Shown here: piece by piece, positions 13,743-35,800 of the stretch | How positions within the stretch are numbered: the stretch's first letter is position 1 | Layout: each line of letters starts with the position of its first letter | Source: Aurantiochytrium sp. KH105 | Lineage: Eukaryota; Sar; Bigyra; Thraustochytrida; Thraustochytriidae | Assembly: GCA_003116975.1 (NCBI GenBank) | Contig: BGKB01000193.1 | Coordinates: forward strand, 51,865-115,864 | Reading direction: 5' to 3' | DNA: 64,000 bases | Notes under the pieces: model-generated | What the model saw: only the letters and a program-made list of their open reading frames with translations | Databases searched by the model: none | Told to the model about the DNA's origin: nothing | Program-made: the position numbers and the translations under genes

Positions 13743-16700
13743 TTACTGTACATGAGCATTCTTGGGACCACCACGAGCCTTGGTGACAAGGAAGGGTGAC
13801 TCAGGTTGAGTCAAGCGGGGCGGCGTGGGCATGCGTGCCGTCCCACGTCCTCTGCTGTAGGACGGCATGGGCCGCGCCTTGCTGACGAGGGTCTTGCGGT
13901 ACTCGCGAATGGCCTCCTCCTCTTCGAGTCGCTTGCGTTCCTCCTCGCGCATCCTTTCTTCTTCTTGCATGCGCAATTTCTCCTCCATCATGCGATCAAA
14001 CTCCCGACGTTGTTCTGCACGAATATCACTCTGCAGCTTGATGTCAAGGACACCAGAGACGCGCCCTGGGAGCTTGAGCTCAAAGGTCTTTTCAAAGGTT
14101 GAGCGAGGCAGTTGACGCGCATGGAATTGGTGTCGCTCCATCTCTTCTTGGCGCTCCTGGGCGAGGCGCTCCTCGCGCGCTTGCTGCTTGAGAATAGACC
14201 GGCGAAGCGCCATAGGAGTAGCTGGCTCCGTCAAAGGCTTTTCGCTGGCAAGCACCGCAGGCTCGTTCACTGGAACGCAGATCGGCCGTGCCTTGAAATG
14301 GCGAGCCCGCTCTTCCTCCTCCTGCTGCCTCTGGAGTTCTTCCTGACGCCGCTGCATCGCAATTTCATGGCGTCGAAGGCCCTGCAGGTTGAATGGAGCA
14401 GGAGCGCTAAGCTCGCGCCTGTTGACTGTCGGGACATTGGGAGGGCGGTTAAAGTTCGGCATTGGACGGGCATGGAAGCTTCGCTCTTGCTCCGGATCCG
14501 AAAATACCGAGGGAGATGCCACCATGGGTCGCGTGGTTGCCCGAGAGTCCGTACGGAGGTTGAAAGGTGCGAAGCGGGTCGGCTTTGGCACCCAGCTCTT
14601 CCCCAAGTTACGCTGGCTACCGAGCGAGTTGCGTCGCGGCCTTGTCGTCGCTTGGTTCATCGGCGCATTCTCATCGTTGGGGCGCCGGGTCGACGCACGC
14701 TGATCCGTGCGGAAATTGAAGGCCTTCGGCACAACCGGCGCTTTCTTTTCGACCTTGGGTACACCCACTTCGCCATTGCTATGCATAACGTTGTCGGGCA
14801 AGGGGCGCGCCTTGAAAGGCTTGAAGTTCTTCAGGGCCTCCTCCTCGAGTTCTTCGCGAGATTTGGCGACAGGAGCCCGAAGACGCATGTCCGTATGGAA
14901 CTTGGGCTCCTCTGGTTCAGTCAGCTGCGGAACGCTCTTGGCAGGGAGCTCGAGTCCCGTGCGATGCTTGTACCTCGCAGGGGTTTTGTGCAAAAAGTTG
15001 TGCACTTGGGACGCAAGAGATTCAAAGGGAGCCGATTCGCTCGCTTCGGGATGACGACCGCCGACGCGCTTGTCCGTGGCGAACTGAAAATCCTTGGGCT
15101 TCGTCAAGCGCACGGGACCATTCTTTGCTGCACTGGGCCGAGCATTGGCCTCCGGAGCATCCTTCTTTGAAGCTGAGTTTGGCGTGACTTTTTTCGATCC
15201 GAGGCGCTGATCGAGTTGAAGCGACGGAGCCTCGCCTTTGGTGAGCGGCTTCTTCGCCGGCTTGGGGACGTTGTTGCTGGCGAGGACGCGCTGGATCTCC
15301 TCGGGTCGCTTCTCGAGCTCGCGGCGGCGATCTTCCAACTCTTGGCGCGCCCGCTCGAGTTCCACAGTTGTGCTGCTTGGACGGTTAGCACGCCGAGGTC
15401 GCACATTTTTCATGAACGACGGGGTCTGCGGTTCGGTCAACTTGGGGCGCGAGACGGCCTTTGCCTTAGTCCCAAAGTATCCTCCGCTTCCAGGAGTTGC
15501 CCTGCGCGATCCCCCTGGACGGCGTTGGGCATTGTTGTGCTCCTCCTGGTTTCGCGACCAATTGTCCGTGGGGAGCATGTAAGATGGAGTTCCGCCACCC
15601 GAGGCGAAGCTTCGGGAGCTCTTGACGCTCCCACTCCGCATAGCGCTTCCAGGATTATGGCGAGTCATTGAGCGCCCACGCTCCTTGTGCGCGCTAAAAG
15701 CCTTTTGCCCAGAGCGCGGAATGCGCGAAGCCGCCGAGAATGGCTGCGCACGAGAGCTGGGCGATGCAAGGCTGTGCATGGCGGGGGACATGAACGAATG
15801 CCCGGGCGTCGCGTTGTTTGCGGAACGCGGAATGCGAGATTCAAACGGGGTGAATCTCATCGCAGGCGAAGCGGCCGGCGAGGCGACCGATCGCGTTGCA
15901 GGTGTCGCTGCATCGGCGTTCGTGACAGAAACCGGGGAGCCAGCTGTGCTGGTTGCAGGCGTGTCAGGATGACGAGCTCCAGGCGTCTTCGCCTGAGTCG
16001 TCGCGGGCGTGCCGGGCTTCTCCGTCACAGGCGTGCCAGGCTGCGCCGTTGCAGGCGTTTCCATCTCCGCCGCAGCCAAAGGTGAGTTGGCGATGGCTGT
16101 TGTAGACACGTTCGTCGCGTTCTCTGCCTCTGCCGCAGCGGGGGAAGCTGGAGGCATGGGCGGTGTGGCCGCGAAGTTTGGTGCACTGCCAGACTGGGCA
16201 GGGGTACTGGCCGCTTGTTTGTGCTCCAAAGCCTCGGCTGGCTTGACCACAGCGGGTGTTTCGGCAGACCGGGCAGGCGTGCCAGGCGTTTGGTTACGCC
16301 CAGCAGCCGCGTCCGACTGCACCGCGGATGCAGTGTCTTCGGTGTTCTTCTCTACATGGTCTTCGACGTGGTGGCCGGCTGTCTCCTCGGGACCGAGGTG
16401 AAGCTCATCGAGCTGCTCCTCAAGGCCTGTCTCGTCATCAACGGCGGCGTCCAGGTCCTGGTCAGGAGTTTTGGGCGAAGCTGCAGCAGCTTGCGCATCA
16501 TCGGGAGACCCAGAAATCATCTGATCGTCATCGTCGTTAAGTCCGCTGTCGGCGAGGGCTTGAGCATCGTCCATGGTCCACTCGTCGACTGTCGCTTCTT
16601 GACCAAAAGCATCTACAGTTGGGCCATCGTAGTCGTTCAGATCGGGGCTCAAAAGATCAGGCACGGGCGAGCCCTCGGATCCGAGGCTGCCAACGTTGTC

Positions 16701-17210
16701 GTCCGCGCTGTCCTGGAGAAAGCTGGGATGTGGCAGCTTCTCGTTGGGAGCGGTGTACTGGTCCAGCACGACTTCTTTCCGCGACTCCGAGTCCGGGGTC
16801 AGCGGTTTGCGTGGGTCAGGGACGCCGTGGGAAGGGTCTACATTGACGTTGATGGAATTTTCATTCTCGCCATTTTCGTTATCCGCGTCCTTTGCGCCAC
16901 CGTTGGACGCCCCTGCCTTGGTCTGTGGGGGCATGTAGTTTGGGTGTGATGGGTGAAACATGGATCTTTCAGTGCCTTCCACGTTGATTTTCTTCTCGAT
17001 GTTGCGCAGCCATTCGTCAGGGATGTTGTTCCGAAAGACCTGGTACTGTTCGCGGACGGCGAAAAAACCGTCTTCGTTGGTAACTTCGCTGTTCTCGTCC
17101 ATTTCCTCCTCGAGCGCGAAGTCTGTGTATTGTGGGCAGTCGAATTCCCAGGACACCTCTTCATTCTCGCCATCTATATGGCTTGTTTCGGCTGGCGCTG
17201 TGCTGTCCAT
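13743..17210 (-). CDS. TPX2: TPX2-like spindle assembly protein
   Basis: Read from ATG 17210 (1155 residues). The frame extends to a TTG at 17483, but the added peptide is low complexity and the ATG peptide begins with an acidic, aromatic segment (EVSWEFDCPQYTDF) as in TPX2 N-termini. The middle (about 240-560) is Pro/Ala/Thr-rich with repeated Thr-Pro sites. From about 600 on there are spaced motifs of the forms FxxxTDxR (FQFATDKR, FNFRTDQR, FNLRTDSR) and F[KH]ARP[LM]P (FKARPLP, FHARPMP, FKARPIC, FHARQLP, SKARPMP). The C-terminus (about 1000-1120) has the long charged helix of the TPX2 domain (RREFDRMMEEKLRMQEEE). TPX2 family proteins bind microtubules, are controlled by importin and Ran, and activate Aurora kinase in animals. 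The Aurora-binding part was not identified here. Confidence 0.8.
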   Translation of the reverse strand: MDSTAPAETSHIDGENEEVSWEFDCPQYTDFALEEEMDENSEVTNEDGFFAVREQYQVFRNNIPDEWLRNIEKKINVEGTERSMFHPSHPNYMPPQTKAGASNGGAKDADNENGENENSINVNVDPSHGVPDPRKPLTPDSESRKEVVLDQYTAPNEKLPHPSFLQDSADDNVGSLGSEGSPVPDLLSPDLNDYDGPTVDAFGQEATVDEWTMDDAQALADSGLNDDDDQMISGSPDDAQAAAASPKTPDQDLDAAVDDETGLEEQLDELHLGPEETAGHHVEDHVEKNTEDTASAVQSDAAAGRNQTPGTPARSAETPAVVKPAEALEHKQAASTPAQSGSAPNFAATPPMPPASPAAAEAENATNVSTTAIANSPLAAAEMETPATAQPGTPVTEKPGTPATTQAKTPGARHPDTPATSTAGSPVSVTNADAATPATRSVASPAASPAMRFTPFESRIPRSANNATPGHSFMSPAMHSLASPSSRAQPFSAASRIPRSGQKAFSAHKERGRSMTRHNPGSAMRSGSVKSSRSFASGGGTPSYMLPTDNWSRNQEEHNNAQRRPGGSRRATPGSGGYFGTKAKAVSRPKLTEPQTPSFMKNVRPRRANRPSSTTVELERARQELEDRRRELEKRPEEIQRVLASNNVPKPAKKPLTKGEAPSLQLDQRLGSKKVTPNSASKKDAPEANARPSAAKNGPVRLTKPKDFQFATDKRVGGRHPEASESAPFESLASQVHNFLHKTPARYKHRTGLELPAKSVPQLTEPEEPKFHTDMRLRAPVAKSREELEEEALKNFKPFKARPLPDNVMHSNGEVGVPKVEKKAPVVPKAFNFRTDQRASTRRPNDENAPMNQATTRPRRNSLGSQRNLGKSWVPKPTRFAPFNLRTDSRATTRPMVASPSVFSDPEQERSFHARPMPNFNRPPNVPTVNRRELSAPAPFNLQGLRRHEIAMQRRQEELQRQQEEEERARHFKARPICVPVNEPAVLASEKPLTEPATPMALRRSILKQQAREERLAQERQEEMERHQFHARQLPRSTFEKTFELKLPGRVSGVLDIKLQSDIRAEQRREFDRMMEEKLRMQEEERMREEERKRLEEEEAIREYRKTLVSKARPMPSYSRGRGTARMPTPPRLTQPESPFLVTKARGGPKNAHVQ

Positions 17211-19193
17211 TGTGTTGTTGTTGTGGTTGTTGTTGTTTTGTACACAGATCTGTGCACTTCCTCGGCGTTCGTGACTGGAGCGAGTCCGTCTCGTGTCCCA
17301 GTTCCACGGGTCCTCAAGGATTACCGGCTTCGGTTCGTGTGTTTCTCTCCGCGATGCGTGCCTTTGGGCGCCCCGCGCGGTACTCTTCCTCGTCGCCTTG
17401 GCCCGATTCAAGGGGCCTTTCTCGGCCAGCACGGTTACAAGCAACTCCAAGAAGGCCTTAGGTCTCTGCAAGCAAGCGAGCAAGCGAGCGAGCGAGCCGA
17501 GACGAGACGGCTCGCGTCCCAGACGACGAGGCCTCCCACCCCGGGTTCTATCCGCCCGCGCGCTCTAGCGCTGCGAGCGAACGACCGACCGAGCGTGCGA
17601 GCGAGCGGAGCGGGCTGTGGTCTCCTGCCGGCGAGCGTCTGCGTGCGAGCGAGCGTCTGCGTGCAAGCGAGCGTCTCTGCGTGCGTGCGTGCGTGCGTGC
17701 GTACGGTCGTTGTCGTTGCGGCTCTGCCGAGCAGCTCCAAAGAGGCCTCGCGCCGTGCAACCGTCGTCGGCGCACGCTGCGACTTTCCTCCGCGCCGCTC
17801 CGCATCCGTCCCCCTCCCTTTCCATATCCTCACCTTCGCCCCACACGCACCATTTGCTGTCACACTTACCGCATGCCCCCCTCTGCATCGGGCGGTTTTA
17901 TCTCCTTGCCCTCCTTAATGAAGGGGTTGAGCCACCCCACTTGGAGAGACGATCGCCCCGAGATTAAGGTGCGTGCGCCGGCTGGGGGAGGCGCGGCAGA
18001 GGAGACTAAGGCTTGATGTCCCCAAGGGCGTTAGGGCGAGAGCGCCCTTACATTAGTAGGGGCAGAGGGCACGAGCCTGTGCGCGAGGAGACGGAGGAGA
18101 TGCAGATGGAGGTGGAGATGGAGATGGAGGTGGAGATGGAGATGGAGGAGGAGACGGAGAAGGGCGAGGAGGGCGCGCGAGGGAGGAGAGAAAAGAGGAG
18201 AAAGGAGAAGGAGAAATGGAGGTTTCGCGAGGGCGGATAAGTGAAAGTGGAGGAGAGTTTTGAGGAGTGCGAGGACGTCCTGAAGGTCACGAGCGAGGGT
18301 GTGACGCGGCGGCCAGAATGAGAGAAACGATGAGGAGGATGACGGTGGCTAGAATAGGAGTCGGGAGGAAGAGGTGACGGAGGTGCAGGAGATAAAATCA
18401 AAAGAAAGGAAAAGGAAACGAGGATTCCTGGCGGGGTGCTCGTGGTTTGTTTCGTGCTGGTCAACGTCAGTCTTCAAAGAAGAAATGGGAGATGGCGAGA
18501 TCCGAAAGTGGAAACCAAAATGTATTTGTTCTCCAGCCTTGGCTCGTCGTCGTAGGAACAGAAATCGATGTGCTAAAGAGGCCGATGTAGCTGTCGCGCA
18601 AAGCTGAGTGAACGAGCCGCATGCGATTGAAATTCTCGTGGTCTCAAGACTTCGCGCGCGAAAATCGATTTTTCGAAAGAGAAACCGCCTGTCTCCGATC
18701 ACAAGAATAAAAGGAAAAAACGAAACCACCGCATCGAACATGTATGCGCGTGCGACTATGTGCGTGCGTACGCTTTGCAGTCAGCGAAATAGCTTTTGCC
18801 TGAAGGTCTAGGCCTGAAGCCTGCCAAGACCGACCAACGCCAAAAAGTATTTCTTCTCGTCCCCTGGTTGATCGATCACCTCCACCTGCCTTCTCCCTTG
18901 TCAGTCAACACGTTTCCTAAAGACTGAGCTCCCGGCGCCCTCCTCGCAGCGCGCTTCGGGGACCATGCCGCAAGGCACCTCGTCGCTCCAAAGTCGGAGC
19001 TGAGCAGGCATAGTTTTTGCGTGCCATCGAGTCCTCTCGACTTGCCTCTATTATGTATAATGGAAAAATCGATGGAAAACGATCGTGGGTGGAGTGAGTG
19101 AGTGAATGAGAGTGATGTGAGTGACCCATCCGATTCGGGTCAGGCCGCGCCGAAGCAAAAGCAGCAGGCCCAGCAGAGCGCGCGGGCCCTGCG
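17211..19193. other. Divergent intergenic region, TPX2-like / SLC35C2-like
   Basis: About 2 kb with both promoters. It carries GCGA/CAAG runs (about 17470-17500), GCGT runs (about 17640-17705) and a purine tract at 18090-18235. No RNA gene was recognised and no frame shows a domain. Confidence 0.55.
18094..18235 (+). repeat. Purine-rich (GGAGAT/GGAGGT) tract
   Basis: The plus strand is almost purely purine, built of short GGAGAT and GGAGGT units followed by GAGAAAAG-type sequence. Such asymmetry can make polypurine structures in promoters; a role here is not shown. Confidence 0.7.
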
Positions 19194-20552
19194 ATGAATG
19201 CCTCGGCGCCGTGGACCGCCGCGCCGAGCGCAGGGCCGAGCGTAGCGCCGAGCGCGGCAAGCCTCGCCTCGCAGCAGGCGGCGGCGGCGAACGAGGCGCG
19301 AGAGCAGTTCATCTTCCTCGTGCTCGATGGCCTCGTGCTCTTTGCCCTCGCGGGCTGCTGCCGGCTCGCAGGCGCGGTCGCGCGGAGGACGTTGATGCCC
19401 GGGAAGAGGCGTGAGCTCACGCTGGAAGTAGCGGAGATCGCGTACTGGAGTGCACTATGGTTTGGCTTCTCGGTGTCCATGGTCGTCTACAACAAGTGGC
19501 TGCTGCACAGCTGGGAGGGCGGCTTCAACTTCCCCTTGCTCATCTCGATGCTGCACATGGGCATCAAGTACTTTCTTTCGCTCGCCATGGTCCGATGCAA
19601 CTCTTTCGCAATTCCCGACATCCCACGACGAGTTTGGTGGCTCTCGGCCGTGCCAGTTGGCTGCGCCACCGCGCTTGATGTCGCCGCCAGTAATGCCTCG
19701 TACCTGTACGTGAGTGTGACCTTTTACACGATTGTCAAGAGCTCAAGTCTGGTTTTTACGTTGCTCTTCTCGGTGCTCTACAAGCTGCAACCGTGCTCTC
19801 TGTCCCTGTTCTGCGCGGTGTCTGTCATCGTCGTCGGGGTGGTGCTGGCGTCGATGGGAGACACGGAATTCAGCACCATTGGATTTCTTCTTGTCATTGG
19901 GTCGTCGGCAGTTGGTGGTTTCCGGTGGTCGCTAACACAGGTGCTCATGAAGCAAATTCGGTGCAATCTGGACGCGATCTTAACCATTTATCTCATCTCA
20001 CCCGCCTCGGCGCTCTCGCTGATCCCGCTGAGTTTGTGGGTCGACGGTGAGCGCTTTTTCCAATCCAAGTTCATCGACGCCAGTCTATTGCCGTACACAG
20101 TTCTGAACATTGTTGGGAGTGGACTTTTTGCGTTCTCCATGATTCTTGTCGAACTGGAGCTGCTGCGCCGCACCTCGTCTGTGACGCTCGGAGTCATCAG
20201 CTATGTCAAGCAGATGTTGCAGATCGGATTGTCTGTCGTCGTGTTTCATGACGTACTGACGCCGTTAAATCTGCTCGGATTCCTGCTGACGCTTTTGGGA
20301 ATGTTCTTGTACACTGTAATTAAGCACCGTGCCAGGGCTGAGGCGCCCCACGCAGGTGGTAAGTACGGCGCCGCCAGTGGAGGTCACATCCGGGACGAGG
20401 AGGAAGGGCTCTTCATCTTTGAAGATTACGGCGACAACCTCGGCGATGACCACAGCAGTGGCTTTGGGGATGATCAGAGCCTTAATGGAACCGATTTTGA
20501 GCTGATCGCTTCAAATTCTGGCCAGGGACAAAGACTCATGAGTAAAACGTAG
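19194..20552 (+). CDS. SLC35C2: SLC35C2-like nucleotide-sugar/triose-phosphate transporter family protein
   Basis: A 452-residue frame from ATG 19194. About ten hydrophobic helices lie between residues 40 and 390, typical of the TPT/EamA drug-metabolite transporter fold. Family signatures include VVYNKWLLHSWEGGFNFPLL in the first part, VSVTFYTIVKSSSLVFT in the middle, and GDTEFSTIGFLLVIGSSAVG then GGFRWSLTQVLMKQ. The last pair matches the SLC35C2 subgroup best. A short acidic tail (about 395-452) should face the cytosol. Members sit in the Golgi or early secretory membranes; SLC35C2 has been linked to GDP-fucose handling, but the substrate here cannot be read from sequence. It converges on the methionine synthase gene, with 171 bases between stops. 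Confidence 0.85.
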   Translation: MNASAPWTAAPSAGPSVAPSAASLASQQAAAANEAREQFIFLVLDGLVLFALAGCCRLAGAVARRTLMPGKRRELTLEVAEIAYWSALWFGFSVSMVVYNKWLLHSWEGGFNFPLLISMLHMGIKYFLSLAMVRCNSFAIPDIPRRVWWLSAVPVGCATALDVAASNASYLYVSVTFYTIVKSSSLVFTLLFSVLYKLQPCSLSLFCAVSVIVVGVVLASMGDTEFSTIGFLLVIGSSAVGGFRWSLTQVLMKQIRCNLDAILTIYLISPASALSLIPLSLWVDGERFFQSKFIDASLLPYTVLNIVGSGLFAFSMILVELELLRRTSSVTLGVISYVKQMLQIGLSVVVFHDVLTPLNLLGFLLTLLGMFLYTVIKHRARAEAPHAGGKYGAASGGHIRDEEEGLFIFEDYGDNLGDDHSSGFGDDQSLNGTDFELIASNSGQGQRLMSKT

Positions 20553-20723: not shown

Positions 20724-23700
20724 CTAAGCGGTATCGTAGGCAAGGTTGGATCCGAGCCACTTCTCAACGAATTCCACAGACTCGCCCTTGCGTTCGGCAT
20801 AGCTCTCGACCTGATCCTTTTGGATCTGGCCGACAGCAAAATACTCGGACTGTGGATGAGCAAAAACGAGCGCCGAGACACTCGAGGCGGGGACCATGCT
20901 GTAGCTTGATGTGAGCGTCATGTGGGCCAGCTTCTCCGCCTCAATGAGATCCCAGAGGACATCCTTCTCGGTGTGATCAGGCTGCGTCGGGTAGCCAGGG
21001 GCAGGGCGAATGCCGTCGTACTTGATCTTGAGCAGGTCCTCATGTTTGAGAGCCTCTGACTTGGCGTAGCCCCAAAGCTCGACACGGATATCACGATGCA
21101 GCTTCTCCGCAAAGGCCTCAACGAGACGGTCGCCGATGGCCTGGGCAAGAATTGCCGTAAAGTCATCATGCTCGGCCTTGTACTTGCTGGCGAGCTCCTC
21201 GACGCCGTGGCAGGCAACAGCCATGCCGCCGATATAGTCCTCAAATCCGGGCGGCGCGACAAAATCAGCCTGACTAAGCATATTCGCTGCCTCGCTCTGC
21301 GCTTGCTGACGAAGCATGCACAGCCTGCTGCGCTCGACCGTCCGCGTCTCATCTTCGTAAATAATGACATCCTCGCCATTGTCAGCCCGATTCGCAGGAA
21401 AGATGCCATACGAGCCCTCGAGCCACAGACTCTTGTCTTCCATAATCTGCTTGAGGAGAGCCTGACCATCGTCAAAGAGCTTGCGTGCCTCCTCGCCAAC
21501 GTTCGCGTCATTAAAGATCTTGGGGTAGCCGCGGTTCGGGTAGCGACCGCGCAGCTCAAATGTCTGGAAGAAGGGGCCCCAGTCAATGTATGGCACGACA
21601 TCCTCGATCGCGCACGTAGGAGCGGCCTTGGCACCGATGCCAACCTGCGGCGCGGGTGCGGGAGGGTTTGCCTCGAAATCGATCTCAAGGCGCTTCTTCT
21701 GTGCGACTTCGAGGGAGTAGAACTTGCGTTCCTCGAGGCCTGCGTAGTAATCTTCCACGATCTCAGCATAATCCTCCTGGATTTCCTCCACGAAATCGGG
21801 CTTGTCTTCCTCGGAAAGAAGTGTCTGCACAACCGTGACGGCGCGACTAGCGTCGAGGACATGAATGACTGGATGCTCCGGGGTCGAATAGTGGGGGGAG
21901 ATCTTGATGGCGGTGTGGCGCTTGCTCGTCGTTGCACCGCCAATCAATAGAGGAATATCGAGCCCAGCCTTCTTCATCTCCTTGGCCACCTTGACCATCT
22001 CGTCAAGACTAGGCGTGATGAGACCTGAGAGGCCGACCGCATCGACCTTGTTTTCCTTTGCGGCCTTGATAATGTCATCGCAAGCGCACATGACGCCGAG
22101 GTCGATCACACGTACAGCATTGCATCCGAGAATGACAGCTGTGATGTTCTTGCCGATATCGTGCACGTCACCAGCGACAGTTGCGATCAGAAAGGTACCC
22201 TGCGAGACCTCGTCTGGATCGGCGTCGTTCGGATCAATGCCGAGCTTGCGAAGGTTCTCCTCTTTTTCGGCCTCGATGAAAGGCTCAAGGTATGCCACGG
22301 CCTTCTTCATGACACGCGCCGATTTAATGACCTGGGGCAAAAACATTTTACCCGACCCGAAAAGATCGCCGACGATGCCCATGCCGTCCATCAAGGGGCC
22401 TTCAATCACGTCGAGAGGTTTCGCGGACGCCAGACGAGCTTCCTCCGCATCCTTTTCAATAAATTTAGTGATGCCATTGACCAGCGCGTGAGACAGACGC
22501 TCTTTGACAGGTTTGGCGCGCCAGTCGGTCGGTTTCTCAGCCGCAGCTGCTTCGCCACCACCCTCCTTCAGACGCTTCAGTCGCTCGCGCTCACGCTGTG
22601 TGGCCTCGAGCATGCGCTCCGTCGCTTGTGGTGTCTTGTTCAAGACAAGATCCTCACAGAGCTTGCGCAATTCCGGCTCCACCTCGTCAGCGCCGAGAAG
22701 TTCGCCGGCGTTCACAATTCCGACGTCCATGCCCGATTCCAGAATCGCGTGCTCGAGAAACACCGCATGGATCGACTCGCGAATCTTTGACACGCCACGG
22801 AAACCAAAGCTCAGGTTCGAGATACCGCCGCTGATCTTCACATACGGACACGCCTCCTTGATGCGCTTCGTTGCGCGAATGAAGTCCACGCCATACGCGT
22901 TGTGCTCCTCCATACCCGTTCCGATCGTCAGTACGTTCGGGTCAAAGATAATGTCCTCGGGCGGGAACCGCACCTCGTTCACTAGAATGTCGTACGAGCG
23001 CTTGCAGATGCGCACCTTTTCGTCTTCCGTCGCGGCCTGACCTTCTTCGTCGAAGGCCATCACGACCACGGCTGCGCCGTGCTTGCGCAGAAGCGTAGCC
23101 TGCTGCTTGAACTTCTCCTCGCCGACCTTGAGCGAGATGCTGTTCACGATCGGCTTGCCCTGGCACCACTTGAGGCCAGCGACGACAATGTCAAAGTTCG
23201 ACGCGTCCAGCATGAACGGGACCTTGGACACTTCCGGCTCGGTGATGGCGATCTTGACGAACTTTTGCATCGCGTCCATGCCGTCAAGCATGCCGTCGTC
23301 GACGTTGATGTCGATCACGTGTGCGCCGTCAGCGACCTGCGCCTTGGCAATATCCATGCACTCGCCATAGTTGCCCTCCATGATCAGACGCTTGAACTTG
23401 CGCGAGCCGGCAATGTTGCAGCGCTCGCCCACGTTCAGGAACGGCATGCCAAGTTGATTGTGCACATCATCGACGACAAGATCTTGCAAACCAGAGAGCC
23501 ACATCTTGGGCATGCCGAGAGCAGGGAGCTCGCGCGTCTTGTATCCGTTCTCTTTGATGCTTTTACCGAGAGCAGCAATGTGGGGCGGCGTGCTGCCACA
23601 GCAGCCGCCAACCATGTTCACAAGATGGTTCTCGAAGAACGGCGTGTTGTAACGCGCCATGTCCTCTGGCGTGTCGTCGTACCCGCCCATGGCGTTCGGA

Positions 23701-26700
23701 AGACCCGCGTTGGCGTACACGTGCACAAAGCACTCCACGACCTTGCTCAGACGCTCCAGGAACGGCGCCATTTGCTGTGCGCCAAGCGCGCAGTTCAGGC
23801 CAACACACATCGGCTTGGCGTGGCGCACCGATGCGTAGAAAGCTTCGCCCGTCTGGCCTGAGAGCGTGCGGCCCGACTGGTCGACCAGGGTACCCGAGAT
23901 GAACACGGGCACATCAAGGCCAGTCACTTCCAAGTATTCGGTGATCGCAAAGAGCGCGGCCTTGGCGTTCAGAGTGTCGAAGATCGTCTCCACCATCAGA
24001 ATATCCGCGCCACCGTCCATCAGACCAACGACCTGTTCAAAGTACGCCTCCACGAGCTCGTCAAAGGTCACGTTACGAGCGCTAGGGTCTTCCACATCGG
24101 GCGAGATCGAGCCTGTGCGGTTGGTAGGTCCCAGGGCACCTACCACGAAGCGCGGACGAGAAGGATCTTCTGCGGTCACTTCGTCACACGCCTCGCGCGC
24201 AAGTCTGGCACCCATGTAGTTGAGCTCATACGCAAGACTTTCCATCGCATAATCAGCCTGCGCAATCGTGGTCGAAGAGAAAGTGTTCGTGCCGATCAGC
24301 TGCGAGCCAGCGTCGAGGTAGGCCCGATGAATATCCTTGATGATCTTGGGCTGCGTGAGCGACAAAAGGTCGTTGTTGCCCTTGACTTCGTTCGACCAGT
24401 CCTTGAAGCGGTCGCCGCGGTACTCGGCCTCCTCCAAGGTGTTGTCCTTGGCGTAGTTCTGGATCATCGTGCCCATGGCACCATCGTAAAGTGCGATCTC
24501 CTCAGCAAAGAGCTGGGCAATGTACGACCGCACGCTGTCGCGAGCACGGACAAAGGCGGGAAAGTTCTCGTCATAGAGGTCAGCAGGCTGCGACCAGTCG
24601 AGCTTGTCGGCGTTCTTGCGGAGAGAGGCGATCTTCTCCACACTGTCGAACGCCTCGTAGTTGTACGGGTTGGGCGTGGCGTTCTGCGCAGCCTCGGACT
24701 GCGGGCGAGGAGGGCCGTTGGTCTGGGGCTTGGGCTTGATGGCGTCGCCCGAGTTCCACGAGAACTCCACACGGGGCTTCTTGGTTACCTTGATGCGAGG
24801 TTTCTTTGGCGCGGGAAGTCCCTTCTTCTTGGCGTCGAGAACGGCACGTTCATAACTCGTGGCCTCGAGCATATGCTCTGTGGCCTCGGGAATCTTGTTC
24901 AACACAAGATCTTCGCAAAGCTCGCGCAAATCAGGCTCAACGTCGTCCGCACATTTGAGCTCGCCGGCGTTCACAATTCCGACGTCCATGCCCGATTCAA
25001 GAATCGCGTGCTCGAGAAACACCGCATGGATCGACTCGCGAATCTTTGACACGCCACGGAAACCAAAGCTCAGGTTCGAGATACCGCCGCTGATCTTCAC
25101 ATACGGACACGCCTCCTTGATGCGCTTCGTCGCGCGAATAAAGTCCACGCCATACGCGTTGTGCTCCTCCATACCCGTTCCGATCGTCAGTACGTTCGGG
25201 TCAAAGATAATGTCCTCGGGCGGGAACCGCACCTCGTTCACTAGAATGTCGTACGAGCGCTTGCAGATGCGCACCTTTTCGTCTTCCGTCGCGGCCTGAC
25301 CTTCTTCGTCGAAGGCCATCACGACCACGGCTGCGCCATGCTTGCGCAGAAGCGTAGCCTGCTGCTTGAACTTCTCCTCGCCGACCTTGAGCGAGATGCT
25401 GTTCACGATCGGCTTGCCCTGGCACCACTTGAGGCCAGCGACGACAATGTCAAAGTTCGACGCGTCCAGCATGAACGGGACCTTGGACACTTCCGGCTCG
25501 GTGATGGCGATCTTGACGAACTTTTGCATCGCGTCCATGCCGTCAAGCATGCCGTCGTCGACGTTGATGTCGATCACGTGTGCGCCGTCAGCGACCTGCG
25601 CCTTGGCAATATCCATGCACTCGCCATAGTTGCCTTCCATGATCAGACGCTTGAACTTGCGCGAGCCGGCAATGTTGCAGCGCTCGCCCACGTTCAGGAA
25701 CGGCATACCATGCTGGTTGTGCACATCATCGACGACCAAGTCCTCGAGTCCAGAGAGCCACATCTTGGGCATGCCGAGAGCAGGGAGCTCGCGCGTCTTG
25801 TATCCGTTCTCTTTGATGCTTTTACCGAGAGCAGCAATGTGGGGCGGCGTGCTGCCACAGCAGCCGCCAACCATGTTCACAAGATGGTTCTCGAAGAACG
25901 GCGTGTTGTAACGCGCCATGTCCTCTGGCGTGTCATCGTACCCGCCCATGGCGTTCGGAAGACCCGCGTTGGCGTACACGTGCACAAAGCACTCCACGAC
26001 CTTGCTCAGACGCTCCAGGAACGGCGCCATTTGCTGTGCGCCAAGCGCGCAGTTCAGGCCAACACACATCGGCTTGGCGTGGCGCACCGATGCGTAGAAA
26101 GCTTCGCCCGTCTGGCCTGAGAGCGTGCGGCCCGACTGGTCGACCAGGGTACCCGAGATGAACACGGGCACATCAAGGCCAGTCACTTCCAAGTATTCGG
26201 TGATCGCAAAGAGTGCGGCCTTGGCGTTCAGAGTGTCGAAGATCGTCTCAACCATCAGAATATCCGCGCCACCGTCCATCAGACCGACGACCTGTTCAAA
26301 GTACGCCTCCACGAGCTCGTCAAAGGTCACGTTACGAGCGCTAGGGTCCTCCACATCGGGCGAGATCGAGCCTGTGCGGTTGGTAGGTCCCAGGGCACCT
26401 ACCACAAAGCGCGGACGAGAAGGGTCTTCTGCGGTCACTTCGTCACACGCCTCGCGCGCAAGTCTGGCACCCATGTAGTTGAGCTCATACGCAAGACTTT
26501 CCATCGCATAATCAGCCTGCGCAATCGTGGTCGAAGAGAAAGTGTTCGTGCCGATCAGCTGCGAGCCAGCGTCAAGGTAGGCCCGATGAATATCCTTGAT
26601 GATCTTGGGCTGCGTGAGCGACAAAAGGTCGTTGTTGCCCTTGACTTCGTTCGACCAGTCCTTGAAGCGGTCGCCGCGGTACTCGGCCTCCTCCAAGGTG

Positions 26701-27062
26701 TTGTCCTTGGCGTAGTTCTGGATCATCGTGCCCATAGCACCATCGTAAAGTGCGATCTCCTCAGCAAAGAGCTGGGCAATGTACGACCGCACGCTGTCGC
26801 GGGCACGGACAAAGGCGGGAAAGTTCTCGTCATAGAGGTCAGCAGACTGCGACCAGTCGAGCTTGTCGGCGTTCTTGCGGAGAGAGGCGATCTTCTCCAC
26901 ACTGTTGAAGGCCTCGTAGTTGTACGGGTTGGGCGTGGCGTTCTGCGCAGCCTCGGACTGCGGGCGAGGAGGGCCGTTGGTCTGGGGCTTGGGCTTGATG
27001 GCATCGCCCGAGTTCCACGAGAACTCGACACGGGGCTTCTTGGTGACATTGTCAGCGGACAT
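20724..27062 (-). CDS. MTR: Cobalamin-dependent methionine synthase with duplicated homocysteine and folate modules
   Basis: A single 2112-residue frame from ATG 27062; the usual enzyme is about 1230-1270. Order: homocysteine domain 1 (about 100-410; zinc ligands in GLNC near 334 and GGCCGS near 398), pterin-binding domain 1 (about 450-700), a linker, homocysteine domain 2 (about 853-1163), pterin domain 2 (about 1205-1453), the cap and B12-binding domain (DVHDIGKN near 1632 carries the cobalt-binding His), and the AdoMet-dependent reactivation domain (RPAPGYP near 2017). The enzyme moves a methyl group from methyltetrahydrofolate to homocysteine through cobalamin, in the cytosol. Both copies keep their zinc cysteines and pterin motifs, so neither looks dead. 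The repeat period is 2259 bases (753 codons). Alternatives are an assembly artefact or two adjacent genes, but the frame stays open through the junction. Confidence 0.93.
22701..24788 (-). repeat. Methionine synthase internal repeat, copy B (downstream module)
   Basis: Nearly identical to 24960-27047 at a constant offset of 2259 bases with no indels seen. A cluster of differences lies around 23450-23495, where the protein reads [16 protein letters not shown] instead of [16 protein letters not shown]. To the left of about 22701 similarity to the other copy falls abruptly. Confidence 0.93.
24960..27047 (-). repeat. Methionine synthase internal repeat, copy A (upstream module)
   Basis: First-encoded copy of the homocysteine plus pterin modules, nearly identical to copy B. 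The right edge falls at the codons for [10 protein letters not shown], seven residues after the start ATG. The left edge, near 24960, is followed by a tail (24789-24959) that is clearly related to, but much diverged from, the matching part of copy B. Confidence 0.93.
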
Positions 27063-28692
27063 CTTGGAGCAGTGGCGTGCACTTGAAAACTACTGTCCCA
27101 GGTTCACCTAACCACCTCTCAACTACGCATGCGTGCATTCACCTTTCGTCAGTCCTCCACTTCAACTCGGCCCTCTTCCCCGCCGGCCGGCCTCTCCTCT
27201 GCTCTGCTCTGCTCGCCTCGCCTCGCCACACGTCGCGTCGCGTCGCGCCGCGTCGCGTCTCGACGCCTCTCGCGCCTTACCTCTCTCCAATTTCTCCGAG
27301 GCGGGGCCGCCTCTCGCGGGTCGCCGGCTCGCCGTGCGCGAGGGAAACCTCGGGAGCCTCGCGCGCGCTGCCTCGCCGTGCGCGCTGCCTCGCCCGTGCG
27401 CGCCTCGCTCGCTCGCTCGCTCGCGCGCGCGCTGCTCGGGCGCCGCGGGCTGCGCGAGCTTGGTCTCGCTCGGGTTGGGCGTCTGGCGGCGGCGATTGCG
27501 CGAGGGCCCGGACGCGCGCCGTGCCCCCCCGCCGCGCCGCGCCCGCCTCGCGCCGCCCTGGACCTGTGGAGGCGGCGCCGCGCGGGGGGCACCGGGCCCA
27601 CTCTGCGCGCAGAATCTTCGGCGCGCTCATGCGTCGGCGCCTCGCTTGCGGGTCGTGCGCCACGGCGTGGATGAACGCCTTGGCGATGAGCAGCGGCAGC
27701 AGGAGGTGGCGCGCATGACGTCCGGGAGGTAGGGCGTCTGTCTGGAGGTCTGGCCGTCTGGCGGCAGTCTGCAGGCAGAGAGCGATGCGGTAGTGAAGTA
27801 GACGTTTGTTGAGCCGAAGTTTCAATTACCAGGGTGTGTACTGCGTGTGCTGCTGGTGCCTAGTGGAGGTCAAGATCACGAGGTAGGGGGTAAGCTTTCA
27901 GCGAACATCATGGAGATGGGCATGCTGTACGAATGAGGCGGGTCTCTTTGGCGTCGAGGAGTCGAGAGAGGGGCGCTCTTTTCCAGTGCGTGGTCATCTT
28001 TAGCCTTGGCTCCAGGTCAACTTCTAAACATAGCATCTCGGCGGAATCCGTCATCATCATCATCATGATCCTCAGAAAAACCCACCCTCGCTCGCTCGCT
28101 CACTCGCTCGCTCTGCACGAAGCGAGGAAGTTCCCCGCAAGATCCCTCGTCTCTAAAGCCAAGAGAACACCCCAATAATTGCCTCCGTTCGTTTCTTCGT
28201 TCGTTCGTTCGTTCGTTTCTTTCCATTCGTCCACAGAACCCGGGGTTCATTCGTCCCTTCGTGATCTGGCCCGTCCCCTCCTTCGAGCATCCCCATGCGT
28301 CATCCGCGCGCTCGCCCGCGCGAGCAACGTTGCCGCCGCGCATGCAGAAGGGGCGGCGAACTAGACGCCGCGGTTCTCCTGCGGGTCGGGCTCTGCTCTG
28401 CTCTGCTCTGCTCTTGTCTCTCTGCTTTCGTCTGCCTTTGTCTGCCTTTGTCTCGACGCTTTGTCTGCTTTGCTCTGCTCTCTGAGCAGATCGCCAAAGC
28501 CCTCTGGCGCGACCCGAGACGAGACTCTTCCGCGCGCGCGACGCCCGCCGACGCTGCCCGAGGCCGCCGCGCGTAGCAGGCGAGAGCGTCCGTCTGCCTG
28601 GCAGTCGCGTGCGCGCCTGCGCGCCTGCGTGCACGGGCGCGGGCGAGAGCGGAAGCGCTGGATACGCACGCGGAGAGGAGGAGAACAACAAC
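27063..28692. other. Divergent intergenic region, methionine synthase / double-SH2 gene
   Basis: About 1.6 kb with both promoters. It contains CGTCG runs (about 27228-27262), GCTC runs (about 27405-27427), GTTC runs (about 28188-28217) and CTCTG runs (about 28383-28412). Arginine/alanine-rich open frames are composition effects. No gene was recognised. Confidence 0.55.
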
Positions 28693-30792
28693 ATGCTGCT
28701 CGCCGGGCGCAGCGCCAAGGGCGGCGAGGCCTCCGCGGGCTCGTCGGCGGCGGCGGCGGCGAGCAGGGAGAACCCGGGCTTGAGCAAGGATGCCAAGACG
28801 TGTCTGCGTCTGCTCAAAATGAGCATCGAGACCGCCAGAGAGGTCACGCACGGACTTGAGAGACACCCCAGTGATGACGAGGTCGCCGGTCTTCGCGTGG
28901 CCTTGACCCTTTGCAGCTCTGTGCTCGCCCAGATTTTCAACCCGCAACTCCTCAATACCTTCCTGCACGACTTTGGCTTCCAGAGCTGGTGCCTCATTCT
29001 CTTTGAGCTGCTCACCGCACTCCGGGACAAGATCAACCATTGCAATCTTCATGGCAAGCTCAGCCTGACGCTCACGGGTCCGCGGCTCCGTCTCTTCTTC
29101 ACTCGCGTCGAAAAGAAACTCATCGCTCATGTCGATATTGTTCAGCCTTACCTTCACTTCGCCATTACTGCTTCCCCGCACGGAGAAGAAACTCTGGCCA
29201 AGCCCGCCACGGAGCAAGAGACCGCCGGATCGCCACCCAGCGTGTCTCGCGATCGAAATGCCGACTTGGCCGCACAACTTCGTGCTGAAGGCGGCATTCT
29301 CTCCATCCAACATCTCATTGAGGACGAAGAAGGCTGCAAGTGGTGGGTCGAAACGTTTGGAAAGAGCAAGTATGCGGTCGCGTGGCAGCAGTTTTTCACG
29401 GCGCTCGACAACCACGCCGACCCCAAGATTGCGCGCTTGGTCTCGCACGAAGACGTGCGAGTTGCACTGAGAAACGCACTAAGCTCGAACTCCCGACCAG
29501 CCGTCACAGTCTATCAGCTCGGAGATTTCTTATTTCGGTATGGCCCTGGTCTGCGCGTAGCCCTCATCCAGCTCAAGGCTTCTTTGACGAGCCCGCCTTG
29601 GTTCGCAGGTGCGCTCTCTTTTGATGAAGCTCGCTGCGTGCTGACTCCGCACCCTCCAGGAACCTTTTTGATTCGCTTCAGCGAAAGTTCCGTGTGCACG
29701 TGGGCTGTCAGCTATGCAAATGCGCTCACAGGCGTGGTCAATCATGCGCTCATCCGCGCTTATGTTCCAAACAAGAACACGCAAAGCGTCTTTGTCAGCG
29801 GTAACCACTCGTACAATTCCTTTGCGGAACTTGTGGCAGCACATTCGGCTCAGCTCCAGCAACCTGCTCCAGACGTGAAAAATATAGGGCCTGCTCGCCT
29901 CTTTCGCGGATTTCTTAGTTTCGATGATGCCGAAGATATGCTAGAGGGTCACCCTGTGGGCACCTTTCTTATTCGATTCAGTCAGAGCCAGGACGGATGT
30001 CTTGTGGTGGCCTACGTCACGCCTTCAGAAGGTGTGCAGCAGTCCAAAATCTTCACCGACGCAAATCGCGGCTTCATCCTTAGTGGCAAGGTATACAAGC
30101 GAATCGCAGCTCTCGTGCTTGACAACAGCAACAAGCTGCGAATTCCCCTTGCCGTCGAGAGATCTGTCGAGTCTCTTGGGGACCCCAATAATGATAACAT
30201 GGATGAACACAACGCACCGCCTCAGCTTGGCTATGCTGCACTTCCCGATCAGGGCGACCTGTCTTCGGGCTTTGGCTCTTACTCTGCTTCAGGTCTCTTT
30301 GAGGAGCGTTATCGCCCTCTGCCGGCCACGGATCATTATGATCCACTCTTTCCCCAGCCTGATCCCTTCATGCTAGGTGGCGGTGGTGGAGCCTTTCACG
30401 GTGAGAGCCCTGGCCTGGGGCTTGGGTTGGGTGTTGGGTATGGTGGATCTTCGCAGTACGAAGCGTACTCCAACCCCCTGGGCGTCATGGGGGGCGGCGT
30501 TGGAGGAGGGATGGGAACGATTGGTTATGACATTCCAGCCTTTTCAGACGGCTCATACAATCCTGGTGGCGAGTCTGCTACTGGTGGCACCAATAATGAT
30601 CACCCCGGCCTCGGCTATGGCCCTGGCCCTGGCGATGCTTACGATGCAGTCCCTTTTGATGCCTTTGGTGTTCCAGAGCCAGCAAATAGCAGACTGACTC
30701 ACAGTCAATACGTTTCTGCTGGTACTTTTCCTTCTACTAGCGAGGTAGCAGCTGCTGCAGCAGCAGCAGCAGCATCCGACAAGGAGACGTAA
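28693..30792 (+). CDS. STAT/Cbl-like protein with two SH2 domains and a tyrosine-rich tail
   Basis: Read from ATG 28693 (699 residues); the frame reaches upstream to a GTG at 28609. Residues about 30-135 are helical, like a four-helix bundle. Residues about 205-300 (KWWVETFGKSKYAVAWQQFF onward) resemble the EF-hand-like linker that precedes the SH2 domain in STAT and Cbl proteins. SH2-1 is at about 300-400 and SH2-2 at about 400-505. Both keep the FLIRFS core with the phosphotyrosine-binding Arg (GTFLIRFSES; GTFLIRFSQS), very close to STAT SH2 domains. The tail (about 510-699) is Gly/Pro-rich with many tyrosines in short motifs (ERYRPLP, DHYDPLF, GYDIPAF, SQYVSAG) and ends in an alanine run. 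No RING, kinase or recognised DNA-binding domain is seen. It is probably a phosphotyrosine-dependent adaptor or STAT-like signalling protein; the exact family is uncertain. Confidence 0.8.
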   Translation: MLLAGRSAKGGEASAGSSAAAAASRENPGLSKDAKTCLRLLKMSIETAREVTHGLERHPSDDEVAGLRVALTLCSSVLAQIFNPQLLNTFLHDFGFQSWCLILFELLTALRDKINHCNLHGKLSLTLTGPRLRLFFTRVEKKLIAHVDIVQPYLHFAITASPHGEETLAKPATEQETAGSPPSVSRDRNADLAAQLRAEGGILSIQHLIEDEEGCKWWVETFGKSKYAVAWQQFFTALDNHADPKIARLVSHEDVRVALRNALSSNSRPAVTVYQLGDFLFRYGPGLRVALIQLKASLTSPPWFAGALSFDEARCVLTPHPPGTFLIRFSESSVCTWAVSYANALTGVVNHALIRAYVPNKNTQSVFVSGNHSYNSFAELVAAHSAQLQQPAPDVKNIGPARLFRGFLSFDDAEDMLEGHPVGTFLIRFSQSQDGCLVVAYVTPSEGVQQSKIFTDANRGFILSGKVYKRIAALVLDNSNKLRIPLAVERSVESLGDPNNDNMDEHNAPPQLGYAALPDQGDLSSGFGSYSASGLFEERYRPLPATDHYDPLFPQPDPFMLGGGGGAFHGESPGLGLGLGVGYGGSSQYEAYSNPLGVMGGGVGGGMGTIGYDIPAFSDGSYNPGGESATGGTNNDHPGLGYGPGPGDAYDAVPFDAFGVPEPANSRLTHSQYVSAGTFPSTSEVAAAAAAAAASDKET

Positions 30793-32854: not shown

Positions 32855-35800
32855 TCAATCGAGATCGAGCGATTGCGAGCCGTCCTGACTACTTGCAGGA
32901 GAGACGTCGGCTCCGTAGCTGTCTGAAGGCGTTGGGTCATCTCCGTAAACATACTCGTAGTTCAGGTCCTCGTCGCAGTCGTCGATATCTTTTTCGAAGC
33001 GATCCAGAAGCTCCTTGAAGGCAGACCAGCCCGCCGATGGGTCCGCTTTGTCAAGTCTTTTCAGCATCTCGTCCTGGCGTTGCCCGGCCTTGCCTGCTTC
33101 GAAAAAGGGCTCCTCAAAGAGAGTCCCCCTGTCATACTTTTCGCGCAATTCTGGATCAGAAAGCACTGCGAAAGCTTCGCCAAGGTCGAGCAAGTGACGC
33201 CGCACCGATGGATCGTCCTCGTCGTGCATGTGGTTCTTGAGAAGCTTCATGCTCTTGCGCTCGAAGGAGTCAAAGATGAGCTTCGAACTTGCCTGTCTTC
33301 GTGCGTGATTGAGGCCAAGGACTCGATAATAGTCCACATGGTTTGCTGCGCGAGCGTCCGTATCGTTCAGGCGGCGCAACCTCGTGTACTCGTCAAAGAG
33401 TCTTCGCTGACGCGACGCAAGTGTCCGCTTGTCGTTATGGTCTTGCATGTGAAGCTCGGCATCGCGCGCTGTCAAGAACGCATTGAAAATGGACGAGGAG
33501 TCACCGAGGCGCTCTAGATACTGAATCTTTGCAAGCGCCACCGAAATATTGCCCGGGCTCGACTCCACCGCGCGCGAGTACGCCCTGCGAGCTTCCTCCC
33601 TCTCCCCAAGGGCGTGAAGCGATTCGCCCATTTGAAGGAAGATGCTGCTGACGAACCAGGGCATGCTGTGGGGTTGCTTTTCGAGAGCCTGGACGAAGTT
33701 GAGCAGCGCCTCGGAGTGCTGATCGGTCTCGGCCATTTTGATGCCCGCCTGCAGAAGCTGGTTTGCGTCGTGAAAGTTCTTCAAACGAAGCTGGTTGTCC
33801 GTGTCACATTGGTACGCAAATTCGAACTGTCGAATTGCCAGCTCGTAGTTGCTCTGCATCACTGCGATGGACGCAGCGAGGGCCCAGACCTCTGCAGTGG
33901 CTTTGGCTTTGCTAGACTCCGACATGCGGCCCATGACCTTCGTCATGAGATCTTCCGCCGTAGGATAGTCTCCTGCTTCGACGTAGCTGCGGATTTTGGT
34001 AACCATGGAGGACATGTCGAGGTCATCTTTCATGACCTTGACATTTTCTTGGAGTTGTATCAGCTCCGCGCAAGAGGGAACCAACTTGAGACCCTCACCA
34101 GCCACAGAGAGCGCCTTTTTCAGTTTGCCATGCTCTTTGAGCTGCTTGGCACGCTCAAGTTTCTCCATTGCTTGCTCCAAAGTCCGTCTTTCGGACGCGC
34201 ATGACTCGAACGCAAGTGGATTGATGCGAATTGCAGCGTCAAAGCTTTCCGCGGCCGCGCTCAGATGGCCTCGTTGCATGCGAATTCGACCGAGACTCAA
34301 GTGAACCTTGTGATTGTCGTCGCGCAGAAACACGCACACAGAAAATTGCTCTTCGGCTTCTTCGAACTGCTTCATCGCGAGAGCGCACTGGCCGGCTCCA
34401 TAGTGCAGATCGAAGTCACCGGGTGTTTCTGCAATTGCCTCTTTATATTGCGCGAGAGCCGCAGCATACGAGCGTCTCTTCATGAGCTGCTCAGCCTTGC
34501 GCTTGAGTAAATCTCCTTTGTTGCTATCTGCTTCCTTTGGGGTACCTTTGCTATTCTTGGTCGAAAATGCTTTGCCATTCTTGCTTGCGTCCTCGTCACC
34601 ACTCTTGCTCGCAGACTCTTTCGAGGCGCGGGCGTTCTTTGTCGCAGACTCTTTGCCATCTGCATGATCGCTGGTCTCTTTCTTGCGATTCTCATCTTCC
34701 TCTTCGCTTTCATCGCTTTCATCCTCGTCATCTGATGCGAAAAGGCTCTTTTTGGCTTCCTCCGCAGCAAGCGCCGCGCGCCGCGCAGCATCAAGCTTCT
34801 TTTCCTTTTTCAGAATATGCGCTGGCTTTGCGCGCTGCACGACAAAAGCATCCTCCGAGTTACGCGCAGCCCCGGAACTCGAGTGACGAGTGAGATTACG
34901 CGTCCAGGTCTTGCCCGCACCCGCACCCGCACCCGCACCCGCACCCGGACCCGGACCCGCGCTTGCGCTTGCGCTTGCGCTTGCGCTTGCGCTTGCGCTT
35001 GCGCTTGCGCTTGCACTCGCGCCTGTGCCCGCTGCCGGTGCAGCACGCGAGGCGGAGACTTCTTTCTCCGATTTGTCCAGAGCCGCAGAAGGAGTGATTG
35101 TCTTTGCAGCGGGGGTCTTTGTGGCAACGGGAGGACCAGTAGACGTCGAACGTTGGTGGCCCAGATGGACGCGCCCTTCTTTGGGACGCTCGTGAGGGAC
35201 AAAAACTGCAGACTTGTTGATTGCGTTGTTGCACATTGGGCATCGCTGGTGCTTCTCACCCTCTTTGCCCATCCAATCGTCAAGGCAAACGCGATGAAAA
35301 CAATGACCACATTTGCCAGCGACCAAGAGACGTCGCGGATCATCCATCTCTTCAAAGCAAATGGGGCAATCATTCAACGTGGCTTGGCTGGACCTTTTCT
35401 TGTCGCCAGCATCAGCCGGTCCGTCTGCTGTCGGCTGCGTGGCTGCCTTCGCCGCTTGCTCACTCGTCTTGATCTGCGTGTCGACCTTCACAGGTCCGCT
35501 GGCTTTCATCTGCGCACCGTCCTTGCCCTTTGGCGATGGAGAGACGGCCACTTTTACACTTTGACTCGGGGATGATGGAAAAGGAGCAGGCTTCCATGCT
35601 TCGCTTGGGGCGCTCCAAACACTCGAGACGGCGTCATTGGCATCTTGAGCAATCGGTTGGTCTCCAAACTGCTCCATGATACTCTGCGCATGGACCTCCT
35701 GGTTTAACATCGATTCTGCATTGGAGTCAGAAGCGACGACGTCATGTACCACAGTCTCTTGTGGTCTTCGAGCTTCAGGAGCTGGAATGGAGCGAGGCGG

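Follow-up and report, generated by a model that had tools for sequence, protein, structure and literature searches.

A methionine synthase gene with two tandem homocysteine-folate heads in Aurantiochytrium sp. KH105 and its multi-headed algal relatives

The vitamin B12 requirement of many algae is due mainly to cobalamin-dependent methionine synthase (MetH or MTR; EC 2.1.1.13), a textbook example of an enzyme in which one cobalamin shuttles between domains. In the E. coli and human enzymes, it is established that MetH moves one cobalamin in turn to the folate, the homocysteine, and the activation site. Isolated front halves of the E. coli enzyme act on free cobalamins. Here, we describe a MetH gene within a 64,000-nucleotide stretch of DNA (the window) from the thraustochytrid Aurantiochytrium sp. 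KH105, which is part of contig BGKB01000193.1 (C193) in a 76-Mb genome of 367 contigs. The predicted protein presents the five MetH domains in the same order, but it has two homocysteine-folate (Hcy-Fol) heads, and three in the other allele, instead of one. It also differs in an N-terminal extension of ~100 aa that recurs before each head and in an extra inner linker. Functional domains are repeated in one chain in the thraustochytrid polyunsaturated-fatty-acid synthase as well, with tandem acyl carrier protein domains thought to raise flux. That enzyme is unrelated, and the carrier is repeated there, whereas here catalytic heads are repeated around one carrier.

For the Phaeodactylum tricornutum methionine synthase Phatr2 23399, a 2015 report (PMC4523565, section 11) describes a 2,280-base in-frame piece modelled as an intron and covered by expressed sequence tags (ESTs). 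The piece adds a second MetH and pterin-binding domain to the protein; the authors call it "probably a result of a mutation-duplication" and ask that the presence of two domains be verified experimentally. By its published description, it is the same in-frame doubling of the homocysteine and pterin part (2,280 bases vs. 2259 in our repeat unit), but it was presented as an isolated case, with an intron in place of one head in the gene model. Within the accessible part of the open-licence PMC literature (most subscription papers fall outside this scope), we found no mention of a doubled MetH domain beyond PMC4523565. The available text of algal METH studies by Pfam content (e.g., PMC11439496, PMC6557843, and PMC10828217) makes no mention of domain copies either. 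Against the literature so covered, the following features appear to be new: the wide spread in algae, the conservation of the inner linker, the homogenised heads, and the unequal head number of the two alleles.

The gene is an open frame on the minus strand (20724-27062), with an ATG start and 2112 aa. A Pfam scan retrieved two S-methyl_trans and two Pterin_bind domains, followed by one each of B12-binding_2, B12-binding, and Met_synt_B12; that is, two Hcy-Fol heads precede a single tail of Cap, cobalamin, and activation domains (Cap-Cob-Act). The repeat period in the DNA is exactly 2259 bp (753 codons), with repeat unit 1 at 24789-27047 (inner-type tail) and unit 2 at 22530-24788 (terminal-type tail), both on the minus strand like all gene parts given below. 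An earlier note on this DNA had described this 753-codon repeat of homocysteine and pterin domains before single B12 and AdoMet domains, and the Pfam scan, the open frame, and the period confirm it. Mis-annotated fusion of two separate genes was ruled out by a single stop-free frame in both alleles.

Head 1 starts with an N-terminal extension (aa 1-104; 26751-27062), followed by a homocysteine domain (aa 105-414; 25821-26750) and a folate/pterin domain (aa 459-698; 24969-25688). The inner linker plus the N-extension of head 2 (aa 699-857; 24492-24968) lead to the second homocysteine domain (aa 858-1167; 23562-24491) and the second folate/pterin domain (aa 1212-1451; 22710-23429). The zinc cysteines that mark the homocysteine domain of MetH are found twice, at aa 338, 401, and 402 and at aa 1091, 1154, and 1155, as the earlier note had seen, and the pterin-binding part is present as two PF00809 stretches. 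After a terminal linker (aa 1452-1519; 22506-22709), the tail contains the Cap domain (PF02607, B12-binding_2; aa 1520-1593; 22284-22505), the cobalamin domain (PF02310; aa 1611-1760; 21783-22232) with DVHDIG at aa 1632, and the AdoMet-binding activation domain (PF02965, 348 bits; aa 1819-2093; 20784-21608) with RPAPGYP at aa 2019. We take DxHxxG and RPAPGYP to be the MetH motifs of the cobalamin and activation domains, respectively. From these domains and motifs, methionine synthase activity with cobalamin is predicted. The Pfam scan of the 2112-aa protein found none of the MetE domains PF01717 and PF08267.

When compared to solved MetH, head 1 aligned over its full length to the front half of PDB 4ccz and 9ssp, and the tail aligned to solved MetH tails. 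One Hcy-Fol front half per chain is a usual, not obligatory, MetH trait from which this protein departs. The view of the earlier note that known MetH/MTR enzymes have one of each domain stood for the solved structures (33 matching sequences, none >1265 aa) and for 80 bacterial loci, but it did not hold for many algal database proteins, which have 2-4 heads. For the region between the heads, the predicted structure of Fol1-linker-Hcy2 (34 sequences) had a mean pLDDT of 77.6 and a pTM of 0.75. The confidence fell below 50 at aa 750-761 and 770-782, which are probably flexible, and was ~90 at aa 790-859, which form the N-extension of the second head. Values below 50 also occur in three short loops of the second Hcy domain, and we rate the model as no more than fair for this reason. 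In this model, the heads look like ordered bodies on a short flexible tether.

Contig C43 of the same genome is collinear with window positions 12031-39532, with aligned blocks 93.6-95.9% identical over the 30 kb compared. Its MetH has three heads, all within a single open frame of 2865 aa. Genome-wide, S-methyl_trans matched at 10 places, five of them in MetH (two on C193 and three on C43), and the activation domain is found in two places only, one on each of these contigs. In our reading, the two contigs represent a single, heterozygous MetH locus, with 2 vs. 3 heads and with both haplotypes kept in the assembly. The head number of MetH is polymorphic between alleles.

The two repeat units of the window are nearly identical over their first 2085 bp (the core), where 2052 bases are identical and 33 differ (26 codons synonymously and 4 not), whereas 70 bases differ in the last 174 bp. 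Within the core, a putatively unconverted island (25704-25754 in head 1; 23445-23495 in head 2) presents 12 differences in 51 bases against 21 in the other 2034 (Fisher p 2.9e-12). A two-letter, position-specific pattern common to both alleles is seen at 11 core sites, all inside the island. Over the whole unit, 73 sites distinguish the inner from the terminal position in both alleles; those in the core are confined to a 43-base stretch between Hcy and Fol, and the others lie in the last 174 bp. A further 28 sites mark the allele and are common to all its heads. With the island and the tail of the repeat unit left out, synonymous divergence (dS) was 0.038-0.056 between heads within one allele, 0.114-0.135 between heads across alleles (same-position pairs included), and 0.135 between the single-copy tails of the two alleles. 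The ratio of nonsynonymous to synonymous change (omega) between heads was 0.005-0.051.

The low dS within each allele, together with the position-specific island and unit tail, points to an old duplication after repeated gene conversion. Intragenic conversion best explains how the heads were kept alike. A recent simple duplication was ruled out by the island and by the divergent end of the unit.

Near-identical repeats are hard to assemble, and the doubled layout could be an assembly artefact or a set of collapsed paralogues. Many contigs <10 kb among the database relatives (numbered here with a P) carry 100% identical heads, possibly forced by a graph loop. The same doubt touches the Hondaea fermentalgiana "Methionine synthase" (P0002, 2120 aa), which has two heads and 99% identity to the window protein. 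Its two heads are identical and both contain the inner-type island, a state found in neither allele of the present genome; it is perhaps a chimeric or collapsed assembly. However, our two haplotypes have separate substitutions and common position-specific linkers, the heads of P0005, P0011, P0053, and P0060 are clearly divergent, and at least three heads are found on contigs >1 Mb (e.g., P0001, P0007, P0121-P0125, and P0127). For P0005, a Mucochytrium quahogii MMETSP protein of 2102 aa with two heads and 78% identity to the window protein, its own heads are 92.4% identical to each other. P0002 and P0005 also bear out the expectation that related protists would have a MetH longer than 2000 residues, and both have the same layout. 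Thus, we find an artefact scarcely credible; the doubled layout is not chance and is unlikely to be an assembly error.

Another way to account for the repeat is an optional head, where the unit is spliced from part of the mRNA to give one-head and multi-head forms. The report on the Phaeodactylum METH (PMC4523565), in which the second head is an EST-covered "intron" of 2,280 bases that stays in frame, would fit such splicing. Nevertheless, the unit length of a frame-preserving repeat accounts for that intron model without any splicing, and spliced-looking reads can arise by alignment across repeats. We judge this option very improbable.

Tandem heads are widespread among relatives. The first search gave 122 proteins, the best 120 of 7999 plus both alleles: 87 had two complete heads, 6 had three, 1 had four, 26 had one, and 2 had none by the cut used. 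A second search with a long green-algal query, which excludes proteins shorter than ~1540 aa, added 66 new proteins from the best 120 of 337. The ranking and the length limits work in favour of multi-head proteins, so the resulting counts show spread and not prevalence: among all 188 proteins (186 database relatives and both alleles), 137 had two complete heads, 18 three, 1 four, 29 one, and 3 none. The 156 proteins with 2-4 complete heads include thraustochytrids, diatoms, pelagophytes, green algae, and dinoflagellates. A third search with a dinoflagellate query (best 120 of 375) added eight proteins, six with two full heads, one in which a partial head precedes a full one, and one broken-up model. 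The last one (P0187; Symbiodinium sp. CCMP2592, 4119 aa) has many partial heads and two Cap matches, and it could be an annotation fusion of two MetH genes or an even longer array.

The multi-head holders include Hondaea, Mucochytrium, Chrysophaeum, Nitzschia inconspicua, and Epithemia on what we take to be the stramenopile side; Chlamydomonas eustigma, C. incerta, Volvox, Chlorella, Haematococcus (four heads), Myrmecia, and Trebouxia, presumably on the green side; and Polarella and Prorocentrum, sorted likewise as dinoflagellates. In public databases, multi-head members are automatically named "methionine synthase" or "hypothetical protein". Some gene models are doubtful. Chlamydomonas reinhardtii CHLRE_06g250902v5 matched Hcy three times and Fol three times (two in full, one in part) but lacked a Cap match, and this gene model is therefore uncertain. 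Several "single-head" models (P0101, P0113, and P0117) look like truncated or collapsed multi-head genes, since each opens with the inner linker. Two more entries are worth describing. P0093, labelled as the moss Sphagnum compactum, is a partial two-head MetH whose heads are nearest (0.82) to P0039 of the stramenopile-like set, and contamination is therefore possible. P0174 (eukprot jgi/Mesvir1) has an inter-head linker of 195 aa that repeats a stretch also present at its N-terminus, and its entry lists Pfam PF16561.

For bacteria, we took the best 80 of 86 relatives chosen by peptide patterns from the window protein; the set is not a survey, and several loci are cut by contig ends. None of these 80 loci had a second head: 76 had one Hcy and one Fol, two had Hcy only, one Fol only, and one neither. 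Counted per frame, 69 frames had one Hcy and one Fol, and seven had Fol only. A bacterial origin of the doubled layout was rejected on the absence of two-head loci in this set.

Heads resemble each other most within one protein. For the multi-head proteins among the 122, the closest head was in the same protein for 172 of 196 heads, with 14 ties and 10 in another protein; in this count, the window protein, its allele, and P0002 were not treated as "other" to one another. A tree of 75 heads from 30 hand-picked proteins, made by a quick method, needs 30 changes of protein label, the minimum possible being 29. The linker tails follow position instead. Compared to proteins with cores <95% identical, the best match was the same position in 104/109 inner and 113/117 terminal linkers, and with the strictest cut (86%), in 95/109 and 111/117. 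We define a multi-head algal MetH group by tandem heads, distinct inner and terminal linkers, and likeness of heads within the protein, and the window protein fits it.

The inner linker is conserved among thraustochytrid, diatom, and pelagophyte proteins and is unlike the terminal linker. We scored sets of up to 25 linkers per class, with a "stramenopile" set of all proteins outside greens and dinoflagellates, unnamed ones included. The inner linkers of this set had a median local score of 372 among themselves, 56 against the set's terminal linkers, 38 against green inner linkers, and 29 against dinoflagellate ones. The METH of green algae and dinoflagellates (Chlamydomonas, Volvox, Chlorella, Haematococcus, Polarella, and Prorocentrum) also has 2-4 heads, mostly most alike within the protein, but with inner linkers unrelated to the stramenopile ones. 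Lineage-specific inner linkers hint at a repeated origin of the multi-head layout. A single very old duplication stays possible, because the inner linkers include the lineage's own N-terminal extension.

These patterns bear on a neutral origin, in which heads are gained and lost by unequal crossing-over and conversion keeps them alike, without benefit and with any one head being enough. The 2 vs. 3 heads of the two alleles, the homogenisation signature, and the 2-4 heads among greens are all expected from it. Still, crossing-over should easily delete heads, yet the layout persisted, with the inner linker conserved across thraustochytrid, diatom, and pelagophyte proteins and the catalytic residues kept by inner heads. 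On balance, a neutral repeat seems unlikely to us, although it comes first among the alternatives; trans action, a holder role, and optional splicing follow, in that order of falling likelihood.

Most heads retain their catalytic features. The zinc triad is complete in 173/176 inner, 155/156 terminal, and 29/29 single heads. The heads of both alleles had no departure at 203 columns near-invariant in terminal heads, a set that includes the alleles' own terminal heads. Judged from their sequences, both window heads are intact and under strong purifying selection. The earlier note had offered that copy A may serve as a methylfolate or homocysteine holder, and more broadly, it could be a non-catalytic holder or a regulatory or structural spacer. 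Three relatives agree with this: in the first heads of P0047, P0087, and P0090, the zinc cysteines are lost and the 106 near-invariant Hcy columns have 12-18 substitutions and 2-16 gaps, whereas the Fol domain has 0-2 substitutions in 92 near-invariant columns (90-92 kept). Unless these are gene-model errors, such heads may be reduced to the folate site. Hcy decay with Fol retention looks as if the extra folate site were the part retained. However, neither the window protein nor its allele has a broken head, all their heads closely match the terminal one, and in P0060 it is the terminal head that lacks one zinc cysteine, while the inner head has all three. The near-identity and the variable number of the heads disfavour a holder role here, and overall we regard it as improbable, if compatible with those three relatives.

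Our preferred reading is that the gene product is a multi-headed cobalamin-dependent methionine synthase, where interchangeable heads on one Cap-Cob-Act tail raise the methyl transfer per B12; we propose it with moderate confidence. The heads would be interchangeable catalytic units on flexible linkers. The single cobalamin would pick up a methyl group at any folate site and deliver it at any homocysteine site, so that several heads would surround each cobalamin with more sites that hold substrate. If B12 or substrates run short, each cobalamin could transfer more methyl groups, by a factor of at most the number of heads. Head number would then be a graded dose, altered by unequal crossing-over. 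Alleles and species vary in their number of heads, which agrees better with a graded dose than with a fixed complex. The suggestion of the earlier note that two front ends share one cobalamin domain fits the intact heads, the strong purifying selection, and the single tail, and the sharing itself is what we infer. The ESTs described for the second Phaeodactylum head (PMC4523565) speak for our reading as well.

Several points weigh against this multi-headed synthase. The low omega between heads could partly stem from conversion, and our data do not separate true single-head members of these groups from collapsed assemblies. According to PMC10828217 and PMC4523565, respectively, METE is present beside METH in Chlamydomonas reinhardtii, whose METH model has the three Hcy matches given above, and in Phaeodactylum, and therefore extra heads do not simply follow B12 dependence. 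Moreover, the Phaeodactylum model treats one head as an intron (PMC4523565), and some mRNAs may lack a head.

The inner heads could also act in trans, methylating or demethylating free cobalamin or serving the cobalamin domain of a neighbouring MetH molecule and not that of their own chain. The action of E. coli front halves on free cobalamins and the completeness of the inner heads are in line with it, but fusion in one chain would then be unnecessary. We consider trans action quite unlikely, somewhat ahead of a holder role.

A broader version of our preferred reading is that several algal lineages independently evolved 2-4 heads sharing one cobalamin to stretch scarce B12. In this view, the number of heads would be a naturally varying dose, unequal even for the two alleles within a cell, and conversion would keep the heads interchangeable. 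We put this forward tentatively, as something that may well not hold. If several heads per cobalamin do operate in thraustochytrids, diatoms, greens, and dinoflagellates, kinetic models from E. coli and human MetH may misfit phytoplankton, and B12 use per methionine would need fresh measurement. Since one genome offers both a 2- and a 3-head allele, the effect of head number can be tested. Besides, the case suggests how a common domain repeat can go unnoticed in a much-studied enzyme, hidden by assemblies and gene models.

B12-independent methionine synthase is probably absent from this genome: PF01717 and PF08267 had 0 matches, and the control genomes were positive in 10/14 and 9/14, respectively. 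With no MetE-family match, methionine synthesis here probably rests on this MetH. For the B12-trafficking context, a PF16690 (MMACHC) profile search gave 0 matches in the genome and likewise 0 in every control genome. The five S-methyl_trans matches outside MetH are homocysteine S-methyltransferase frames of 334-393 aa on contigs C28 (two), C26, C95, and C152, which are possible methionine salvage routes.

Around the MetH gene, the window contains several long uninterrupted frames, and the region thus looks intron-poor and gene-dense. They encode a DUF3591 and bromodomain protein (6294-12320, plus strand), a TPX2 protein (13746-17483, minus), a member of the triose-phosphate transporter family (19194-20549, plus), an SH2 protein (28609-30789, plus), and a protein with TPR, RING, and CCCH fingers (32858-38200, minus). 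An adjoining pair of class C G protein-coupled receptor-like genes (ANF_receptor and 7tm_3) is located at 48474-50912 and 52329-54863 on the minus strand. Finally, near the contig end, a 1357-aa frame (59580-63650, minus) contains a MULE transposase domain.

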